Source: Opitutus sp. (GTDB taxonomy: Bacteria; Verrucomicrobiota; Verrucomicrobiia; Opitutales; Opitutaceae). Taken from it: a DNA stretch of 51,711 bases. Below, piece by piece: positions 40,287 to 48,669 of this stretch. The stretch covers positions 1 to 51,711 of the forward strand of contig PNJQ01000019.1 in NCBI GenBank assembly GCA_013821985.1, in the 5' to 3' direction. Position 1 is the first letter of the stretch; every line of letters begins with the position of its first letter. Position numbers and translations under genes: made by a program. Under the pieces are notes generated by a model. It made no database searches and was not told where the DNA came from. It saw only the letters and a program-made list of their open reading frames with translations.

Positions 40287-40652
40287 GCTGGGGGCGGACC
40301 GGAAAGATTCATGTTTTGCCCCCGGATTCCCAGCCTAGAATGCACGCCGCTCGTCGCTCTAGCGCACAATTTACGCATCGGCTGGGCGGTCGCTGACGGG
40401 AGATTGGCCATGGCGATTGCGCCCGGCACTCGCTGTGGCCGCATGCGCGAACCAGTGCCCGGCCGGGGGCTCCGCCAATTCATCTTCCTTGCGCCGAACG
40501 TCAAGCACCGCACCGCACCGAACTCCCCCGAAAATGCATCCGGCCCTCTCCGGGCAAGCCTGCCCCCAATGACCAACTCGCGCGTTCCGTGTCATGCGGG
40601 AAAATTGGCTTGCGACTGCGGCGGCCGCGGCGGACTTTCCCGCCGTTCGCCT
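40287..40652. other. Region between response regulator and his leader
   Basis: No gene supported in 366 bases. GCGGGAAA (40596-40603) and TTTCCCGC (40636-40643) form an 8-bp stem with a 32-base GC-rich loop just before the leader peptide and may be part of the his leader RNA. The promoter of the his operon must lie here but no clear -35/-10 pair was seen. Confidence 0.45.
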
Positions 40653-40688
40653 GTGAATCGCAACCACCACCATCACCACCTCCTCTAG
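40653..40688 (+). CDS. Histidine-operon leader peptide (HisL-like)
   Basis: GTG AAT CGC AAC, then CAC CAC CAT CAC CAC, CTC CTC TAG gives MNRNHHHHHLL. Five consecutive His codons 136 bases before hisG, followed by a hairpin and T-rich terminator, match the arrangement of E. coli hisL, whose leader has seven His codons. No good Shine-Dalgarno precedes the GTG; an in-frame ATG at 40569 would give a longer peptide with the same His run. Function rests on position and codon run rather than on homology. Confidence 0.72.
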   Translation: MNRNHHHHHLL

Positions 40689-40777
40689 CCTTCCCGCCCG
40701 GGAAGGCAGTGCCTTCTCGCGGTGATGAATCCAATTTTCTGAACCCCGGCTGGCACGTCCCGCCGGGGTTTTTCTTT
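40688..40777 (+). promoter_or_regulatory. Attenuator RNA of the his operon with alternative hairpins and terminator
   Basis: GCCTTCCC-gccc-GGGAAGGC (40688-40707) begins at the last base of the leader stop. GAAGG-cagtg-CCTTC (40702-40716) shares bases with it, so the two are mutually exclusive. GGTGATG (40721-40727) is complementary to CATCACC (40671-40677) inside the His codons. The terminator is AACCCCGGC (40742-40750) with GCCGGGGTT (40762-40770), then TTTCTTT. Ribosome stalling at His codons would block the codon-run pairing; how this feeds into the terminator is not worked out. Confidence 0.7.
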
Positions 40778-40823: not shown

Positions 40824-41735
40824 ATGCCTCCCGCCACTCCGCCCAAGGACCGCCTCCGCCTCGCCCTGCAAAAAAGCGGCCGACTTTCCGCCGACTCGCT
40901 CGACCTGCTCGCGCGATGCGGCATCAAAGTGAAAACCCCCAAGGAAAAACTCCTGCTGCACGCGGAAAATTTCCCGATCGATCTGCTTTTCGTGCGCGAT
41001 GACGACATCCCGCAGCTGGTGATGGATGGCGTTTGCGACCTCGGCATCGTCGGCACGAACGTGCTCGAAGAAACCGCCCTTGAGCGCCACACCAACGGCG
41101 CCGGAGCCGGCTACGAACTACAGCGAACACTCGATTTCGGCGGCTGCCGACTCGCCATCGCGTTGCCCGAGGAACGCGCCTACGCCACACCGGCGGACCT
41201 CGCCGGCGTGCGCATCGCGACTTCCTACCCGCAATTGACGAAACGTTACCTCGCCGCGCAAGGCGTCGCCGCGGAGGTCGTGGTGCTGACCGGCTCGGTC
41301 GAGATCGCGCCGCGTCTCGGCCTCGCCGAAGCCATCTGCGATCTCGTCGCCACCGGCTCGACGCTCGAGGCCAACCAACTCCGCGCCGTGGAAACGATTT
41401 TTAAGAGCACCGCCGTCCTCATCCGCGGCGCGCGCGAACTCGACGCCGTGAAGGCGCACGCGCTCGAACTGCTCCTCCGTCGCATCGACGGCGTGCAGAT
41501 GGCCGCGGAGGCAAAATACATCATGCTCCACGCCCCGAAGTCCGCGCTGCCGCAAATCAAGCAGCTCCTCCCTGGCGCGGAAAATCCGACCATCCTCCCG
41601 CTGGCCGGAGACGACACGAAAGTCGCGCTGCATGCCGTCTGCCAGGAAGCCGTTTTCTGGGAAACGATGGAGTCGCTCAAACGCGTCGGTGCGAGCAGCA
41701 TCCTCGTGCTCCCGATCGAGAAGATGATGCTGTGA
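40824..41735 (+). CDS. hisG: ATP phosphoribosyltransferase, long form
   Basis: A 303-residue enzyme for the first step of histidine synthesis. [57 protein letters not shown] and [27 protein letters not shown] form the catalytic part. The C-terminal ~80 residues ([30 protein letters not shown]... [14 protein letters not shown]) are the ACT-like histidine-sensing domain, so this is the self-sufficient long form that needs no HisZ. It closely follows the E. coli pattern to the last residues. ATG 40824 matches the family start. Confidence 0.97.
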
Positions 41736-41740
41736 GAACA

Positions 41741-41902
41741 AAGGCTGAAGGACTGAAAAACTAAAGGGCTGAACCATGAACCTCGCCACCATCCCGCCGT
41801 GTGGAGCCACTCGTCGTCAGGCCGCTGCGCACCGCAACGAGATTCACGCACGATGAACTCCACGCGATTCAGCCCTTCCGCTCTTCAGCCCTTCAGTCTT
41901 TC
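41741..41902. repeat. Inverted GGGCTGAA-type repeats between hisG and hisD
   Basis: Left: a GGCTGAAGGACTGAA...AAAGGGCTGAA run (41741-41773). Right: its inverse, TTCAGCCCTTCC, then CTTCAGCCCTTCAGTC (41868-41902). The runs can pair at AAGGGCTGAA/TTCAGCCCTT and ACTGAAGG-type units and would form a large hairpin with a ~95-base loop in the 171-base gap. Confidence 0.65.
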
Positions 41903-41906
41903 TTCC

Positions 41907-43280
41907 ATGCAGCCCCTCCTCTGGAAAAACCTTTCCTCCCGCGCGCGCACCGCGGCGCTCCAGCGCCCGGCGCTGGCCGCCCGGCCGCAGATTGCCCGCA
42001 CGGTCGCGCGCGTCATCGCCGCCGTGCAGCGCGAAGGCGACGTCGCGCTCCGCCGCTTCACACGCGCCTTCGACGGCGTGACGCTGCGCGCGTTGCGGGT
42101 GACGCCGGACGAGTTTGCCGCCGCGGAGCAATCGCTGGCGCGCGCGGACCGCGCCGCGCTGCGCACCGCTTATCGCAACCTCCGGCGCTTCCACGCCGCC
42201 CAGCGCAGCACGCCGCTCCGCGTCGAAACCACACCGGGCATCCTCTGCGAAAAAATTTCGCGTCCGATCGAGCGCGTGGGCCTCTACGTCCCGGGCGGCA
42301 GCGCGCCGCTGTTTTCCACCGCGCTCATGCTCGGCGTGCCGTCGCAGCTCGCCGGTTGCCCCCGGCGCGTTCTCTGCACGCCGCCGGGCCGCGATGGACG
42401 GGTCAGCCCGTGGATCCTCTACGCCGCGCAGCTCTGCGGCGTCACGGAAGTGTTCAAAGTTGGGGGCGCGCAGGCGATCGCCGCCTTGGCTTTCGGCACC
42501 GCGACGATTCCAAAGTGCGACAAGCTTTTCGGCCCGGGCAACGCCTTCGTCACCGAGGCAAAACAACAAGTCGCGCGCGCGCCCGCCGGCGCGGCGATCG
42601 ATTTGCCGGCCGGGCCCTCCGAAGTGATGGTGATGGCCGATGCATCCGCCGACCCCGAGTTCGTCGCCGCCGACTTGCTTTCCCAAGCCGAGCACGGTCC
42701 CGACTCGCAGGTGATGCTCGTGGCGTTCAGTCGAGCATGCGTGGCCCGCGTTAGCCTCGCGCTGTCGCGCCAACTGGCGGAGCTCCCGCGCCGCGCCGTC
42801 GCGTCGCGCGCGCTCGAGCAAAGTCGCGCGCTCCTCGTGTCGTCGATCACGGAAGCCGCCGAAATCGCGAATCGCTACGCTCCCGAGCATCTCATTCTCC
42901 AAGTTGCCGAACCTCGCGCGCTCCTGCCGAAAATCGCCACGGCCGGCTCCGTCTTCCTCGGCGCGTGGACCCCTGAGTCGCTCGGCGATTACGCCAGCGG
43001 CACCAATCACGTGCTGCCCACCTACGGCTGGGCACGTTCTTGCAGCGGACTCGGGCTCGCCGATTTTTCGCGCACGATGACCGTTCAAGCCGCCACGCCG
43101 CGTGGACTGCGGCGGCTCGGGCCCGTTGTCGAACGCCTCGCCCTCGCCGAAAATCTCACGGCCCACCAACGCGCCGTCTCCGTGCGGCTGGCCAAACTCC
43201 CGTCCACCGATCGCTCTCGTTCTCTTTCTCCCAATCGTTCCCTCGAACCCGAGATAATGAGAACGAAGCCGAAGCGCTGA
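41907..43280 (+). CDS. hisD: Histidinol dehydrogenase
   Basis: A 457-residue enzyme making histidine from histidinol in two NAD-dependent steps. VGLYVPGGSAPLFSTALMLGVPSQLAG, KVGGAQAIAALAFGT, KLFGPGNAFVTEAKQQV, DLPAGPSEVMVMAD, DLLSQAEHGPDSQVMLV (Zn and catalytic Gln/His) and APEHLIL are all present; HVLPTYGWARSCSGLGLADF is the C-terminal block. The family ends around ALAENLTAHQRAVSVRL. The last ~27 residues (DRSRSLSPNRSLEPEIMRTKPKR) are extra and encoded by GTTCTC-type repeats. ATG 41907 precedes the core; the stop is 2 bases before hisC. Confidence 0.97.
   Translation: MQPLLWKNLSSRARTAALQRPALAARPQIARTVARVIAAVQREGDVALRRFTRAFDGVTLRALRVTPDEFAAAEQSLARADRAALRTAYRNLRRFHAAQRSTPLRVETTPGILCEKISRPIERVGLYVPGGSAPLFSTALMLGVPSQLAGCPRRVLCTPPGRDGRVSPWILYAAQLCGVTEVFKVGGAQAIAALAFGTATIPKCDKLFGPGNAFVTEAKQQVARAPAGAAIDLPAGPSEVMVMADASADPEFVAADLLSQAEHGPDSQVMLVAFSRACVARVSLALSRQLAELPRRAVASRALEQSRALLVSSITEAAEIANRYAPEHLILQVAEPRALLPKIATAGSVFLGAWTPESLGDYASGTNHVLPTYGWARSCSGLGLADFSRTMTVQAATPRGLRRLGPVVERLALAENLTAHQRAVSVRLAKLPSTDRSRSLSPNRSLEPEIMRTKPKR
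43213..43266. repeat. GTTCTC-type repeats forming the hisD 3' end
   Basis: GCTCTCGTTCTCTTTCTCCC, then AATCGTTCC and, after AACCCGAGATAAT, GAGAACGAAG form short inverted units like those at 32025-32048. They encode the non-conserved HisD tail. Confidence 0.5.
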
Positions 43281-43282
43281 CT

Positions 43283-44389
43283 ATGAGCACCGATTCTCTC
43301 CTCTCCCTCGTCCGCCCCGAAATCCTCGCGCTCACGCCCTACTCGTCTGCCCGCAAGGAGTCCTCCGGAGGCCACGTCTGGCTCGACGCGAACGAAAATC
43401 CAACGACGCCATCGGCGTCGTTGCCCTCCGAAGCCTTGGCGAAGGAGGGCGCGCTCAACCGTTACCCGGAGCCGCAGCCGGCCGAGCTCGTCGCGCGTCT
43501 CGCCTCGCTCTACGGCGTCACGCCCGACCGTGTGCTCGTCACGCGCGGCTCCGACGAAGGCATCGATCTGCTGCTGCGCGCGTTTTGCCGGGCCGGTCAG
43601 GATGCGATCCTCACCACGCCGCCGACCTATGGCATGTATGCAGTCGCCGCCGGCATCCAAGGCGCGCGCACGCTCACCGCGCCGCTCGTGCGCGAACGGA
43701 ATTTCGCGGTCGATTCCGACCGCGTGATTGCGGCCGCGCTCGCCGCGCCGAAGCCGGGCGCAGGCGGGGTGAAACTCGTCTTCCTCTGCTCCCCCAACAA
43801 TCCCACCGGCCAGTCGCTCGATCGCGACGCCGTGTTGCGTGTTGTCGAAGCGCTCTCGGGCCGCGCCGTTATCGTGGTCGATGAAGCCTACGCGGAGTTT
43901 TCGTCCGCCCCGAGCTTGGTCGCGGAACTCGGCGCGCAGGCGAATCTCGTCGTGCTGCGCACGTTGTCGAAAGCCTTCGGTCTCGCGGGCGCGCGCGTGG
44001 GCGTGACTCTCGCCGCGCCCGAATTGATCGGCGTGCTGCAAAAAATCATCGCCCCCTACCCGGTGCCCACGCCGGTCGCCCACGCCGCGCTCGAAGCCCT
44101 GACGCCCGACGCCATCGCGGCCGCCCGACGCTCTGCGCATGAAATCGTCGGGGAACGCCAGCGCGTCGCGACCGCGCTCGCCGGCCTGCCCGTCGTGCGC
44201 CACGTTTGGCCGAGCGATGCAAATTTCCTGCTCATTGAGGTCGCCGACTCGGCGCGCCTCATGGCTGCCGCGCGGGGAGCCGGCCTGGTGCTGCGCGACC
44301 GCAGCAAGGACGTGCCGAACACGGTGCGCATCACGATTGGCACCCGCGCCGAAAACGATTTCGTTTTGGAGGTGCTTGCCCGTGAATGA
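43283..44389 (+). CDS. hisC: Histidinol-phosphate aminotransferase with repeat-encoded linker
   Basis: A 368-residue PLP enzyme (aminotransferase class I/II). WLDANENPTTP opens it, GSDEGIDLLLRAFC and SPNNPTGQ follow, then VIVVDEAYAEF, and the PLP Lys in VLRTLSKAFGLAGARVG, with ANFLLIEV and VRITIGT later. The linker between NENP and LNRYPEPQP is TTPSASLPSEALAKEGA, ~6 residues longer than in E. coli HisC and entirely encoded by two palindromes. ATG 43283 starts 2 bases after hisD. Confidence 0.97.
   Translation: MSTDSLLSLVRPEILALTPYSSARKESSGGHVWLDANENPTTPSASLPSEALAKEGALNRYPEPQPAELVARLASLYGVTPDRVLVTRGSDEGIDLLLRAFCRAGQDAILTTPPTYGMYAVAAGIQGARTLTAPLVRERNFAVDSDRVIAAALAAPKPGAGGVKLVFLCSPNNPTGQSLDRDAVLRVVEALSGRAVIVVDEAYAEFSSAPSLVAELGAQANLVVLRTLSKAFGLAGARVGVTLAAPELIGVLQKIIAPYPVPTPVAHAALEALTPDAIAAARRSAHEIVGERQRVATALAGLPVVRHVWPSDANFLLIEVADSARLMAAARGAGLVLRDRSKDVPNTVRITIGTRAENDFVLEVLARE
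43401..43450. repeat. Two adjacent palindromic elements inside hisC
   Basis: CAACGACGCC-atc-GGCGTCGTTG (43401-43423) is a perfect 10-bp inverted repeat. It is joined directly to GCCCTCC...GGAGGGC (43423-43450) with inner sequence GAAGCCTTGGCGAA. The AGCCTTGGCGA core recurs at 51682-51692 between inverted CGCC/GGCG arms in the right-edge intergenic region. Confidence 0.8.
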
Positions 44390-44479: not shown

Positions 44480-45544
44480 ATGAAAAAAATCCTTTTTCTC
44501 GACCGCGATGGCACGCTCATCAGCGAACCCGTCGATCAGCAGATCGACCGTCTCGACAAGTTCGCGCTCGAGCCCGACGTCGTGCCGGCCCTGCGCCGGC
44601 TGATCGAGGCCGGCTACACGTTGGTGATGGTGACGAACCAGGACGGGCTCGGCACGCCGAGCTTCCGCGAAAGCGAATTCCGGCCGCTGCAGGACCTCCT
44701 GCTGCGCGTGCTGGGTTCGCAAGGCATCGGCTTCGAAGCCGTGCGCGTGTGTCCGCACACCGCGGCGGATCGCTGTGATTGCCGCAAACCCAAGCCCGGA
44801 CTGCTGTTGGATTACCTCCGCGACACGGCTTGGGATCGCACGGCCTCTGCGGTCATCGGCGATCGCGAGACCGACGTGCAGCTCGCCGCCGCCCTTGGTG
44901 TGCGGGGCCTGCGTTACGATCGTCGCTCCAACAACTGGCTCGCGCTCACGGCTCAGTTGCTCGATGCGCCCCGCCGCGCCGCCGTGCGCCGCAAGACGAA
45001 CGAGACCGAGATCACTGTCTCCGTCGATCTCGACACCCCGGGCACCGCCAAAATCAAAACCGGTCTCGGCTTCTTCGACCACATGCTCGAACAGATCGCG
45101 AAGAACGCCGCGATCGGCCTGGTGATCGATTGCACCGGCGACCTCGAAATCGACGAGCACCACACCGTCGAAGATGTCGGCATCGCGCTCGGACAGGCAT
45201 TGAAACAGGCGCTCGGCGACAAGCGCGGCGTCGGTCGTTATGGTTTCGTGCTGCCGATGGACGAAGCCCGCGCGCAAGTCGCGCTCGATCTGAGCGGGCG
45301 CGCGTATTTCGTTTTCGAGGGGAAATTCAGCCGCGACAACGTTGGCGAACTGCCAACCGAGCTCGTGCCGCATTTCTTCCGGTCATTGAGCGACGCGCTC
45401 GCCGCGACGCTGCACATGACGGTGCAGGGCGAGAACAACCACCACCTCGTCGAGGCGCTGTTCAAGGGCTTCGGCCGCGCGCTGCGGCCCGCGATCGCGC
45501 GCGACGGCAGCAACGCCGTGCCGAGCACAAAGGGGACGCTGTGA
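44480..45544 (+). CDS. hisB: Bifunctional histidinol-phosphatase / imidazoleglycerol-phosphate dehydratase
   Basis: A 354-residue fusion. Residues ~1-165 are the HAD-type phosphatase: LFLDRDGTLISEP with the two catalytic Asp, VMVTNQDGLGTPSF, and the zinc loop CPHTAADRCDCRKPKPGLLLDY. Residues ~167-354 are the dehydratase: RKTNETEITVSVDLD, GLGFFDHMLEQIA, and metal sites EIDEHHTVEDVGIALGQAL and GENNHHLVEALFKGFGRAL. The fused form is the E. coli type (355 residues); many bacteria encode these as separate genes. The order N-terminal phosphatase then dehydratase is identical. Confidence 0.97.
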   Translation: MKKILFLDRDGTLISEPVDQQIDRLDKFALEPDVVPALRRLIEAGYTLVMVTNQDGLGTPSFRESEFRPLQDLLLRVLGSQGIGFEAVRVCPHTAADRCDCRKPKPGLLLDYLRDTAWDRTASAVIGDRETDVQLAAALGVRGLRYDRRSNNWLALTAQLLDAPRRAAVRRKTNETEITVSVDLDTPGTAKIKTGLGFFDHMLEQIAKNAAIGLVIDCTGDLEIDEHHTVEDVGIALGQALKQALGDKRGVGRYGFVLPMDEARAQVALDLSGRAYFVFEGKFSRDNVGELPTELVPHFFRSLSDALAATLHMTVQGENNHHLVEALFKGFGRALRPAIARDGSNAVPSTKGTL

Positions 45545-45671: not shown

Positions 45672-46265
45672 ATGCTAGCGATCGTCGATAGCGGCGGAGC
45701 CAACATTGCCTCGGTGCGCTTCGCGCTCGAGCGCCTGGGCGTGCGCAGCGCGCTCACCGCCGATCCGGCGGTCATTCGGGCGGCCGAACGCGTGATTCTT
45801 CCCGGCGTCGGCTCCGCCCAGGAAGGCATGAAACGCCTGCGCGCGAAGCTGCTGGTCGAGTGCGTGCGCTCGCTCACGCAGCCCGTGCTCGGCGTTTGCC
45901 TCGGGATGCAGTTGCTCTTCGAAAATTCCGCGGAAGGCGACGTGACGTCGCTCGGCCTGCTGCGCGGACGCGTCGCGCGGCTGCCGGAGGCCCCGGGGGT
46001 CACGGTGCCGCACATGGGTTGGAACACACTCGAAGTCATCCGCGCCACGCCCCTCCTGCGCGGCATCGACGCAAGCAGTCGCTTCTATTTCGTCCACAGC
46101 TACGCCGCGCCGGTGACGAATGACACGCTGGCCGCGGCGACGCACGGCACGCGCTTCGCCGCCGTGGTGCAGCGCGGCAATTTCTCCGGCGTGCAATTCC
46201 ACCCGGAACGCTCCGGATCCGCCGGCGCGCAATTGCTGAAAAATTTTCTGGAGATGTCCGCGTGA
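45672..46265 (+). CDS. hisH: Imidazole glycerol phosphate synthase, glutamine amidotransferase subunit
   Basis: A 197-residue class I amidotransferase that hydrolyses Gln and feeds ammonia to HisF. AIVDSGGANIASVRFALERLG, ILPGVGSAQEGMKRLR, the nucleophile elbow VLGVCLGMQLLFENS, and the His/Glu pair in GVQFHPERSGSAGAQLLKNFL complete the catalytic triad. The HisA and HisF genes follow in the same direction, so the heterodimer is encoded nearby. The start is ATG 45672. Confidence 0.97.
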   Translation: MLAIVDSGGANIASVRFALERLGVRSALTADPAVIRAAERVILPGVGSAQEGMKRLRAKLLVECVRSLTQPVLGVCLGMQLLFENSAEGDVTSLGLLRGRVARLPEAPGVTVPHMGWNTLEVIRATPLLRGIDASSRFYFVHSYAAPVTNDTLAAATHGTRFAAVVQRGNFSGVQFHPERSGSAGAQLLKNFLEMSA

Positions 46266-46377: not shown

Positions 46378-47109
46378 ATGATTATCTATCCCGCCATCGA
46401 TCTTCGCCGCGGCCGCGTCGTGCGCCTCACCGAAGGGAGCTTCGAAGCCGAAACGGCTTACGACGACGATCCGCCGCGCGTCGCACGGGAATTCGCCACC
46501 GCCGGTTCGGTCTGGTTGCACCTGGTCGATCTCGACGGCGCCAAGGATCCGACCCAGCGGCAAACCGCGCTTGTGGCCGCCGTCGTGCAGGCGAGTGGGC
46601 TCCGTGTGCAGGCGGGCGGTGGCATCCGGGAGGAAGCCCAAGTGCGCGCGCTGCTCGACGCCGGCGTGTCGCGCGTGATCGTCGGCAGTCTGGCAGTGAA
46701 ACAACCGGAGCTCGTCGGCGCGTGGCTGGAAAATTTCGGCCCGGAAAAAATCGTGCTCGCGCTCGACGTGCGGCTGAACCCCGAAACCGGCGTGCCCCAA
46801 GTCGCGATCGCCGGTTGGCGCGCGGACAGCGGCCTTGCACTCGACGAGGTGCTGGGCGGCTATCTGCCGCGCGGGCTGAAGCACGTGCTTTGCACGGACA
46901 TCAGCCGCGACGGCAAGCTCACGGGACCAAACTTCGGGCTCTACTCGGATTTGCGACGCGATTTTCCGACCCTCGAGTTGCAGGCGTCCGGCGGCGTCTC
47001 GTCGCTCGACGATTTACGACGCTTGAAACGCGAAGGCGCCTCCGGCGCGATCGTCGGCCGTGCGCTTTACGAGAAGAAGTTCACCCTGCCGGAGGCGCTG
47101 GCCCTGTAG
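46378..47109 (+). CDS. hisA: 1-(5-phosphoribosyl)-5-[(5-phosphoribosylamino)methylideneamino] imidazole-4-carboxamide isomerase
   Basis: A 243-residue (beta/alpha)8 barrel, fourth enzyme of the pathway. IIYPAIDLRRGRVVRLTEGSF holds the first catalytic Asp; LHLVDLDGAKDPTQRQ and VQAGGGIREEAQVRALLDAGVSRVIVGSLAV are phosphate-site landmarks; HVLCTDISRDGKLTGPNFGLY supplies the second catalytic Asp. The closing SGGVSSLDDLRRLKREGASGAIVGRALYEKKFTLPEAL is standard. Its TAG stop is formed by the first bases of the GTAGG repeat element that follows. Confidence 0.97.
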   Translation: MIIYPAIDLRRGRVVRLTEGSFEAETAYDDDPPRVAREFATAGSVWLHLVDLDGAKDPTQRQTALVAAVVQASGLRVQAGGGIREEAQVRALLDAGVSRVIVGSLAVKQPELVGAWLENFGPEKIVLALDVRLNPETGVPQVAIAGWRADSGLALDEVLGGYLPRGLKHVLCTDISRDGKLTGPNFGLYSDLRRDFPTLELQASGGVSSLDDLRRLKREGASGAIVGRALYEKKFTLPEALAL

Positions 47110-47196: not shown

Positions 47197-47967
47197 ATGT
47201 TAGCCCGCCGTATCATTCCCTGTCTCGACGTGCGCGACGGTCGCGTCGTGAAAGGCGTGCAGTTCCGCCAGCACGAGGACGTGGGCGATGTGCTCGAACT
47301 CGCGCAGCGCTACCGCGACGCGGGCGCGGACGAGATCGTCTTCTACGACATCACGGCGAGTAGCGACGGGCGCACGCTTTCCGCGGCCTGGGTTGGCCGC
47401 GTGGCACGCGTGCTCGATGTGCCGTTTTGCGTCGCGGGCGGCATCCGCTCGCTCGAGCAGGCGAGGGAACTCCTGCACGCCGGCGCCGACAAGGTCTCGC
47501 TCAACTCGCCGGCGCTCGAGAATCCCGCGCTCGTCACGCAGCTCGCACAGGAATTCGGTTCGCAGGCGGTGGTGGTGGGCATCGATTCGCGCACCGAGGA
47601 CGGCGATTACTTCGTGAAGCAATACACCGGCGATCCCGACAAGACGCGCGCGACACGCTGGCGAACGATGGATTGGGCGCGCGAAGCGCAGCGGCTCGGC
47701 GCGGGCGAAGTTGTGCTGAATTGCATGAACCAGGACGGCATGCGACGCGGCTACGATTTGGCGCAGCTCAAACTCGTGCGCACTGTGCTCACGATTCCGC
47801 TCGTCGCGTCGGGCGGCGCGGGCACACCGGAGCATTTTCGCGACGTGTTCCAACAAGCTGGGGTCGATGCGGCACTCGCCGCATCGGTTTTCCACAAAGG
47901 CACGATTCAAATCCCCGATTTAAAATCCTACCTCGCCCGCGAGGGCGTCTGCGTGCGCACTGACTAA
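47197..47967 (+). CDS. hisF: Imidazole glycerol phosphate synthase, cyclase subunit
   Basis: A 256-residue barrel that closes the imidazole ring using ammonia from HisH. The catalytic Asp residues are in [16 protein letters not shown] and [43 protein letters not shown] and [18 protein letters not shown] are phosphate sites. The segment [24 protein letters not shown] is of the E. coli type, different from the shorter HisF of many phyla. The closing [20 protein letters not shown] is also E. coli-like. Confidence 0.97.
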
Positions 47968-48054: not shown

Positions 48055-48669
48055 ATGAATTCTCTTCCCTCTCTTGACTGGCAAAAATCCGGCGGGCTGG
48101 TGCCGGCGATCGTGCAGGACGCCGACACCCAACAAGTGCTGATGCTCGGCTACATGAACGCTGCCGCGCTCGAGCAGACGCTGGCGACGAAACGTGTAAC
48201 GTTTTTCTCCCGTTCGAAGAACCGCCTCTGGGTGAAGGGCGAGACGTCGGGACATTTCCTGGATTTCTTGAGCGCCTCCGTCGATTGTGACGCCGACGCG
48301 TTGCTCGTGCTGGCGCGGCCCAACGGCCCGACGTGTCACCGCGGCACGTGCAGTTGCTTCAGCGAAGGCGGCGCGAGCGGGGTAGGTTTTCTCGCGGAGC
48401 TCGAGCGCACGGTCGTGCAGCGCATCGCGGACGGCGGAGAGAAGAGCTACACCGCGCGACTCGTCGCCGAAGGCGTGAAACGCGTCGCGCAAAAAGTTGG
48501 TGAGGAAGGTGTCGAGACCGCGCTCGCCGCGACCGCGGGCACGAACGAGGAACTCGCGGGCGAAGTGGCGGACTTGTTGTTCCACCTCATCGTATTGCTG
48601 CGTGCGAAAGGGCTGTCGCTGGCGGATGCGACGCGCGTGTTGGAAGCGCGGCACGCCGCGAAGAGGTAG
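48055..48669 (+). CDS. hisI: Bifunctional phosphoribosyl-AMP cyclohydrolase / phosphoribosyl-ATP pyrophosphohydrolase
   Basis: A 204-residue fusion (HisIE). Residues 1-~110 are the cyclohydrolase: GLVPAIVQDADTQQVLMLGYMN, VTFFSRSKNRLWVKGETSGH, SVDCDADALLVLARPNGPTCHRGTCSCF (the metal-binding Cys). Residues ~115-204 are the pyrophosphohydrolase: EKSYTARLVAEGVKRVAQKVGEEGVETALAAT, DLLFHLIVLLRAKGL. Fused order matches E. coli. It is the last gene of the operon, 87 bases after hisF. No terminator was seen after it. Confidence 0.97.
   Translation: MNSLPSLDWQKSGGLVPAIVQDADTQQVLMLGYMNAAALEQTLATKRVTFFSRSKNRLWVKGETSGHFLDFLSASVDCDADALLVLARPNGPTCHRGTCSCFSEGGASGVGFLAELERTVVQRIADGGEKSYTARLVAEGVKRVAQKVGEEGVETALAATAGTNEELAGEVADLLFHLIVLLRAKGLSLADATRVLEARHAAKR

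Follow-up and report, generated by a model that had tools for sequence, protein, structure and literature searches.

The DNA just upstream of hisG in an Opitutus sp. genome (GenBank assembly GCA_013821985.1) raises the question of whether a member of the Verrucomicrobiota regulates histidine synthesis by transcription attenuation and, if so, how it came by such a device. The window is the whole stretch analyzed here, 51,711 nt of contig PNJQ01000019.1, and a sequence-only reading had proposed that the logic of Escherichia coli hisL operates in it, ahead of the his operon. Two papers (PMC2965389, PMC9413887), in their available text, place most described leader-peptide attenuators in Proteobacteria, Actinobacteria, and some Firmicutes; in the available part of PMC2965389 the authors, their own Firmicutes cases aside, knew such systems at that time only from Proteobacteria and Actinobacteria. 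Among the matches listed from the open-licence literature, there was no earlier description of his attenuation in Verrucomicrobia or Verrucomicrobiota. We consider it highly probable that the leader acts on hisGDC[NB]HAF[IE] as a ribosome-mediated transcription attenuator. The operon itself was probably imported from a proteobacteria-like donor, and the attenuator most likely came with it. The proposed hisL-like logic is a prediction, supported by the sequence, by its conservation, by alternative folds, and by changes on both sides of base pairs.

The leader and its alternative folds

The peptide frame, its five histidine codons, and its stop codon lie exactly where the sequence-only reading had placed them (Table 1). 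The frame remains open further upstream, giving a 125-aa ORF from 40311 to 40688. We regard a gene of that length as unlikely, as an in-frame stop occurs no more than 60 nt upstream in 6 of 30 related leaders, an argument that is weak alone because the remaining 24 are open across the same short 60-nt stretch. Downstream, the gene order and the hisNB and hisIE fusions match hisGDC[NB]HAF[IE], the order printed for the E. coli operon in the available text of PMC1963479.

Table 1. Coordinates of the leader elements and his genes in the window
Feature	Position	Strand	Remarks
-35-like TTGCGA	40610..40615	+	TTGC conserved 40-50 nt upstream of leader start; putative promoter role
Weak -10-like GACTTT	40633..40638	+	By position only, 17 nt 3' of the -35-like box; poor consensus match
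Leader peptide ORF VNRNHHHHHLL	40653..40688	+	GTG start, 11 codons, stop TAG 40686-40688; His-rich ORF in 30/30 leaders
Five His codons, region 1/A	40665..40679	+	40671-40677 able to pair with 40721-40727
Segment B, CCUUCCC	40689..40695	+	Directly 3' of stop codon; partner C
Segment C, GGGAAGGCA	40700..40708	+	Alternative partners B or D
Segment D, GUGCCUUCUC	40709..40718	+	Partner C, or its GUGCC with GGCAC of E (antiterminator)
GGUGAUG, complement of His codons	40721..40727	+	MFE and centroid of whole leader
Segment E	40741..40756	+	Terminator 5' arm 40741-40750 plus GGCAC 40752-40756; both-side changes in alignment
Segment F	40762..40777	+	Terminator 3' arm 40762-40771 plus U-rich tail to 40777 (MFE)
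hisG, long form with C-terminal regulatory domain	40824..41735	+	ATG 40824; TIGR00070 and TIGR03455 above cut-off
hisD ORF	41799..43280	+	Start codon uncertain; TIGR00069 above cut-off (41859-43280 scanned)
hisC ORF	43040..44389	+	Start codon uncertain; TIGR01141 above cut-off (43274-44389 scanned)
hisB (hisNB), bifunctional histidinol-phosphatase/IGP dehydratase	44480..45544	+	NCBIfam NF003937, 525.3 bits, cut-off 443
hisH	45672..46265	+	TIGR01855 above cut-off
hisA	46378..47109	+	TIGR00007 above cut-off
hisF	47197..47967	+	TIGR00735 above cut-off
hisIE, bifunctional, fused	48055..48669	+	NF002747 above cut-off

The predicted folding energy of the 125-nt leader is -47.5 kcal/mol (z -4.11), a value equalled by 0 of 200 dinucleotide shuffles. 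In both the MFE and centroid structures of the full, untranslated leader, the segment that had been singled out earlier as complementary to the His codons is present and paired with them, and the terminator is left standing. The intrinsic terminator described earlier is likewise there, with its U-rich tail, and is separated from hisG by a short spacer; its stem has 10 bp plus 2 bp instead of the 9 reported, and the spacer measures 46 bases instead of 47. What the sequence-only reading had sought in vain was a full antiterminator pairing, and this gap is now filled by the outer stem of D with E, GUGCC at 40709-40713 with GGCAC at 40752-40756. In the window's MFE fold, D:E adds inner pairs that take in part of the terminator 5' arm, and because of them the antiterminator and the terminator would exclude one another.

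Segments were also folded separately (MFE) to imitate exposed RNA: B through E as it would be before F exists, and C through F without everything before C. With B free and F absent, B:C and D:E both form; in the C..F fold, C:D and the terminator form. These folds, together with the alignment, bear out the mutually exclusive hairpins, B:C versus C:D, of the earlier proposal.

Conservation among Opitutaceae leaders

Removing duplicates from 95 loci (L001-L052 and L111-L153) left 30 distinct Opitutaceae leaders of the window's type. All 30 have, ahead of the his operon, a His-rich ORF of 9-11 codons (3-6 His) in which three or more His codons stand in a row, and all keep the terminator by sequence and by fold; among the loci of the window's type, none was without such a run. 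The run is not invariant: it reaches at least five uninterrupted His codons in 23 leaders and is shorter in seven, with just 3-4 His in L004, L005, L034, L040, L045, and L124. The ORF ends in TAG in 26 leaders, TGA in three, and TAA in one, and B adjoins the stop codon directly in 26, whereas in the other four it starts 2-3 nt further on. The 142 leader His codons comprise 89 CAC and 53 CAT, a third-base variation that resembles what is seen in coding sequence.

The alternative folds recur across these leaders. B..E folds contain at least 6 of the 7 B:C pairs in 29 leaders (0 in L045) and D:E in all 30, with 5/5 pairs in 25 and 3-4 pairs in five (L046-L048, L125, and L129, where one or two pairs are broken). 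The C..F folds show 6/6 tested terminator pairs in 29 leaders and 4/6 in L007. Mean z values against shuffles were -2.25 for B..E, -2.02 for D..E, and -3.09 for C..F; B..E was unremarkable in seven leaders (L040, L045-L048, L125, and L129), for which 12-27 of 100 shuffles fold as well.

RNAalifold recovered C:D and E:F from the 30 leaders; of their 17 pairs, 6 have changed on both sides. Changes of this kind are seen in C:D, E:F, and D:E. The D:E stem occurs as GUGCC/GGCAC, GCGCC/GGUGC, and GUGCC/GGCGC; 142 of 150 cells are paired, a count reached by 0 of 2000 shuffles, which take no account of relatedness among the leaders. B:C showed no covariation (206/210 paired, reached by 322 of 2000 shuffles), and this nearly invariant stem was dropped as covariation evidence. 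An alignment of the regions upstream of hisG in relatives, suggested as a check by the sequence-only reading, thus found both the conserved His run with its terminator and compensated stem changes.

A three-His run in the 420 nt upstream of hisG was found in 0 of 28 same-order loci with the other HisG type, 0 of 8 loci from other Verrucomicrobiota, and 0 of 50 Brevundimonas-type loci (L061-L110), whose long HisG is 55-59% identical to the window's. In two of the Brevundimonas-type genomes (G485 and G486), only the dehydratase half of HisB gives a strong match, which fits an unfused hisB. A His run is likewise missing upstream at four loci of genus g77 (L141-L144; HisG 46-50% identical to the window's). 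One further locus, L145 of genome G269, comes from another family of the same class (f23, genus g77) and was left out of the 30-leader counts; it has an ORF, MIWQVTIHHLHHHHVR, about 144 nt upstream of hisG that starts 13 nt past a promoter-like pair, TTGACA-16-TATAAT.

Origin of the operon and its leader

HisG had a match in 186 of 200 sampled Opitutaceae genomes and was absent in 14. It was 76-100% identical to the window's in 20 genomes (genera g1, g58, and g10); the other 166 matched at E no better than 1e-35, with at most 35% identity among the matches listed, and the window's HisG is about 30% identical to that of other Opitutaceae. Long HisG proteins 49-60% identical to the window's were found in 9 of 143 gammaproteobacterial genomes (class sample), and a plasmid collection held gammaproteobacterial HisG at 53-62% and Bacteroidota HisG at 44-45%. 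Among the matches listed for a 288-genome phylum sample, the others above 40% were five g77 genomes (42-52%). In a 41-row tree of HisG, the sole his protein treed, the Opitutaceae xenologues form one clade (100/99), apart from native Opitutaceae HisG and nested in a moderately supported clade (93/87) with gammaproteobacterial, alphaproteobacterial, and Deinococcus-plasmid rows; no sister group was resolved, and Campylobacterota were not included. The matches of a structure search included another long-type HisG, 4yb5, which we take to be from Campylobacter.

Each of 20 genomes tested has one gene for IGPD (hisB). In all 11 carriers it sits on the strand of hisG and no more than about 5 kb from it, whereas in all 9 non-carriers, where it is the one native his gene mapped relative to hisG, it lies elsewhere. 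Because HisG falls into these two types and IGPD adjoins it in carriers only, a compact operon probably replaced separate native his genes in part of the Opitutaceae, and a cross-phylum replacement from a proteobacteria-like donor is likely. A 2007 paper (PMC1963479), in the available text of which the stem 'attenuat' has 0 occurrences, reported that Campylobacter and CFB bacteria had received a whole gammaproteobacterial his operon by transfer. The available text of PMC8305728, on his genes in Bacteroidota, has 0 occurrences of 'leader peptide', and that of PMC9413887 raises the possibility that Lutispora acquired a his operon together with its attenuator.

Whether the leader came with the genes was approached through models of the RNA. 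The Rfam family His_leader (RF00514) has a gathering score of 49 bits, and membership by score is rejected for the window at 33.8 bits; the best leader among 22 carrier genomes scored 45.7 bits, with none above the cut-off. Below the cut-off, RF00514 matches the hisG leader in 19 of the 22 carriers (E 5e-6 to 0.115; missed in G003, G009, and G123) and at hisG in 0 of 10 non-carriers, and in the source genome this is the sole match at E up to 1. Away from hisG, six of these 10 non-carriers gave a match at E up to 1, of which the strongest (G014, 33.0 bits, E 0.0023) came near the window's score, and the model also matched in 7 of 14 control genomes, one over the cut-off. At gathering level it found 1 of 20 loci, that of E. 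coli alone.

A model for the reverse comparison, built from Opitutaceae leaders only (R1), matches E. coli hisL at 53.1 bits (E 2.6e-12). It finds 12 of 13 other gammaproteobacterial loci with a His leader ORF (L197 missed), a set in which L161 repeats L053 and in which L164 and L058 reach only E 0.003 and 0.04. Searched order-wide, R1 matched 12 of 132 genomes weakly (E 1.6e-4 to 0.0093), apart from G000 and G069; across nine whole genomes, it recovered the leader of hisG in G482, G484, and G625 and missed G483 and G551, both with His leader ORFs. A core model running from the stop codon to GGUGAUG (R2) gave no match at gammaproteobacterial leaders in leader orientation and so lends no support to homology of the core with those leaders.

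We think it likely, on these sequence comparisons, that the attenuator was co-transferred with the operon. Alternatively, the operon may have arrived without a working leader and the attenuator may have arisen anew in Opitutaceae, converging on the gammaproteobacterial layout, a course of events that we consider unlikely, if worth weighing. Such an origin would fit the failure of R2 and the lack of a three-His run at all 50 Brevundimonas-type loci despite their similar HisG, and convergence has been proposed for Firmicutes His leaders, which are described as dissimilar to proteobacterial ones in the available text of PMC2965389. Since the matches of RF00514 and R1 share His codons, hairpins, and a terminator, convergence could explain them too. 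Against it, the two models align to each other's leaders over their full length and at the right place, and by eye the gammaproteobacterial and Opitutaceae leaders have in common a stop codon abutting B, the succession B-C-D, and a segment that reads GUGGUGCAUGAA in E. coli, GUGGUGAUGAA in several relatives, and GCGGUGAUGAA in the window. His leader ORFs also precede related operons in Bacteroides, Parabacteroides, and two Deinococcus plasmids, so the leader may be the common state.

These hisNB-type operons, from Bacteroides finegoldii, Parabacteroides distasonis, Deinococcus radiophilus, and D. proteolyticus, resemble the window's in their short His ORF and hairpin-like segments; R1 misses the Deinococcus and B. 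finegoldii leaders and finds that of P. distasonis only at E 0.14. In B. finegoldii (L194) and P. distasonis (L195), leader ORFs MKYTAIHHHHFPNE and MKITTTLHHHHHYSGR lie upstream of hisG and are followed by a terminator-like hairpin. D. radiophilus pRadio1 (L191) and D. proteolyticus pDEIPR01 (L193) have the His ORFs MFVDVHHHCR and MYVFSHHHVS upstream of hisG, with hairpin-like segments after them. The HisG of both plasmids groups with Idiomarinaceae (99/96), the gene table, which is incomplete, shows hisC between those two genes' neighbours hisD and hisB for neither plasmid, and pRadio1 has an IS630 transposase between hisD and hisB. Firmicutes His attenuators (Bacillus cereus group, Eubacteriales, and Erysipelotrichales), by their description in the available text of PMC9413887, are alike in having a short peptide with three to five His codons and a terminator/antiterminator before his operons, in another phylum.

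We also looked before trpE at 21 loci (L216-L236, five from non-carriers) and found no Trp-rich short ORF (up to 30 codons, with WW or three Trp, within 300 nt). At most 16 of these loci are informative, L226, L233, and L236 having the wrong ORF or being cut upstream and L223 and L228 having their start set about 290 nt early; higher-scoring family matches were covered. On at most 16 of 21 loci, there is thus no sign before trpE of a wider habit of leader-peptide attenuation in these Opitutaceae.

Start signals and the proposed switch

The closest known system is hisL of E. coli and Salmonella (RF00514), which the window resembles in its His-run peptide, the stop codon abutting B, the alternation of B:C plus D:E with C:D plus E:F, and the same operon behind. 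It differs in a peptide of 11 codons versus 16, a shorter B-C loop, a score below the Rfam cut-off, a core sequence that is not significantly similar, the lack of a Shine-Dalgarno (SD)-like tetramer, and a very short predicted 5'UTR. In 29 of 30 leaders, TTGC precedes the start codon by 40-50 nt, mostly with an A-rich stretch ahead of it (L034 has TTTAC instead), and a 17-nt spacing across the leaders leads to a poor -10 ending 12-22 nt upstream of the start codon, which implies a predicted 5'UTR of roughly 5-15 nt.

Such features could mean that the leader is no more than a terminator with a His-rich ORF, without histidine sensing, for instance for want of a ribosome-binding site and of an ATG start here. 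The weak -10 would fit this, as would the start codon, GTG in this genome alone and ATG in the other 29 leaders, and none of four SD-like tetramers occurs in the 20 nt upstream of the window's leader start (2 of the 30 leaders, L004 and L044, have one). GTG, however, is an ordinary start codon, and by eye the window's hisG, hisB, hisH, hisA, hisF, and hisIE, the six operon genes with a settled start, have no evident SD either; SD-less initiation may be normal in this organism, on the basis of six starts rather than a genome count. With the parts kept across 30 leaders as well, we judge a non-sensing leader quite improbable. That a chance His run met chance hairpins is next to inconceivable, short as the ORF is, given the conservation and given that five-His-codon runs number two on both strands of the 3.74-Mb assembly, one of them this leader, where the reversed control pattern has 0 occurrences.

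Through its five-His peptide, the leader appears to sense histidine; the ribosome positions, termination, and histidine response that follow are ones we infer from the hisL model. With ample His-tRNA, the ribosome would reach the TAG at 40686 abutting B and cover B, so that C:D pairs and the E:F terminator ends transcription at about 40777. With scarce His-tRNA, it would stall in the His run; even a ribosome stalled at the first His codons would leave B uncovered, an argument about coverage that draws on the size of the ribosome footprint. B:C would then pair, and D (GUGCC) would be free to pair with GGCAC and, through the inner pairs, with part of the terminator 5' arm, giving readthrough into hisG. 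If the leader went untranslated, the His codons would pair with GGUGAUG and the terminator would form by default.

As for its history, the native his genes of one section of the Opitutaceae would have given way to an operon from a proteobacteria-like donor. A fuller account, to which we give roughly even odds of being right, is that the complete operon crossed with its attenuator, that the leader was refitted to an SD-less start on an almost leaderless transcript, and that the switch spreads as a self-contained cassette, as suggested by the His leader ORFs ahead of the related Bacteroidota and Deinococcus-plasmid operons. The attenuation mechanism is already known; it is the host phylum and the imported operon that exceed the routine. 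The comparison suggests that the Rfam His_leader cut-off misses true members, and 30 aligned natural variants of a his attenuator, compensated antiterminator changes included, are now at hand. A conserved attenuator in Opitutaceae, tied to an imported operon, would show that such switches can pass from one phylum to another along with their genes and persist under other transcription and translation signals.
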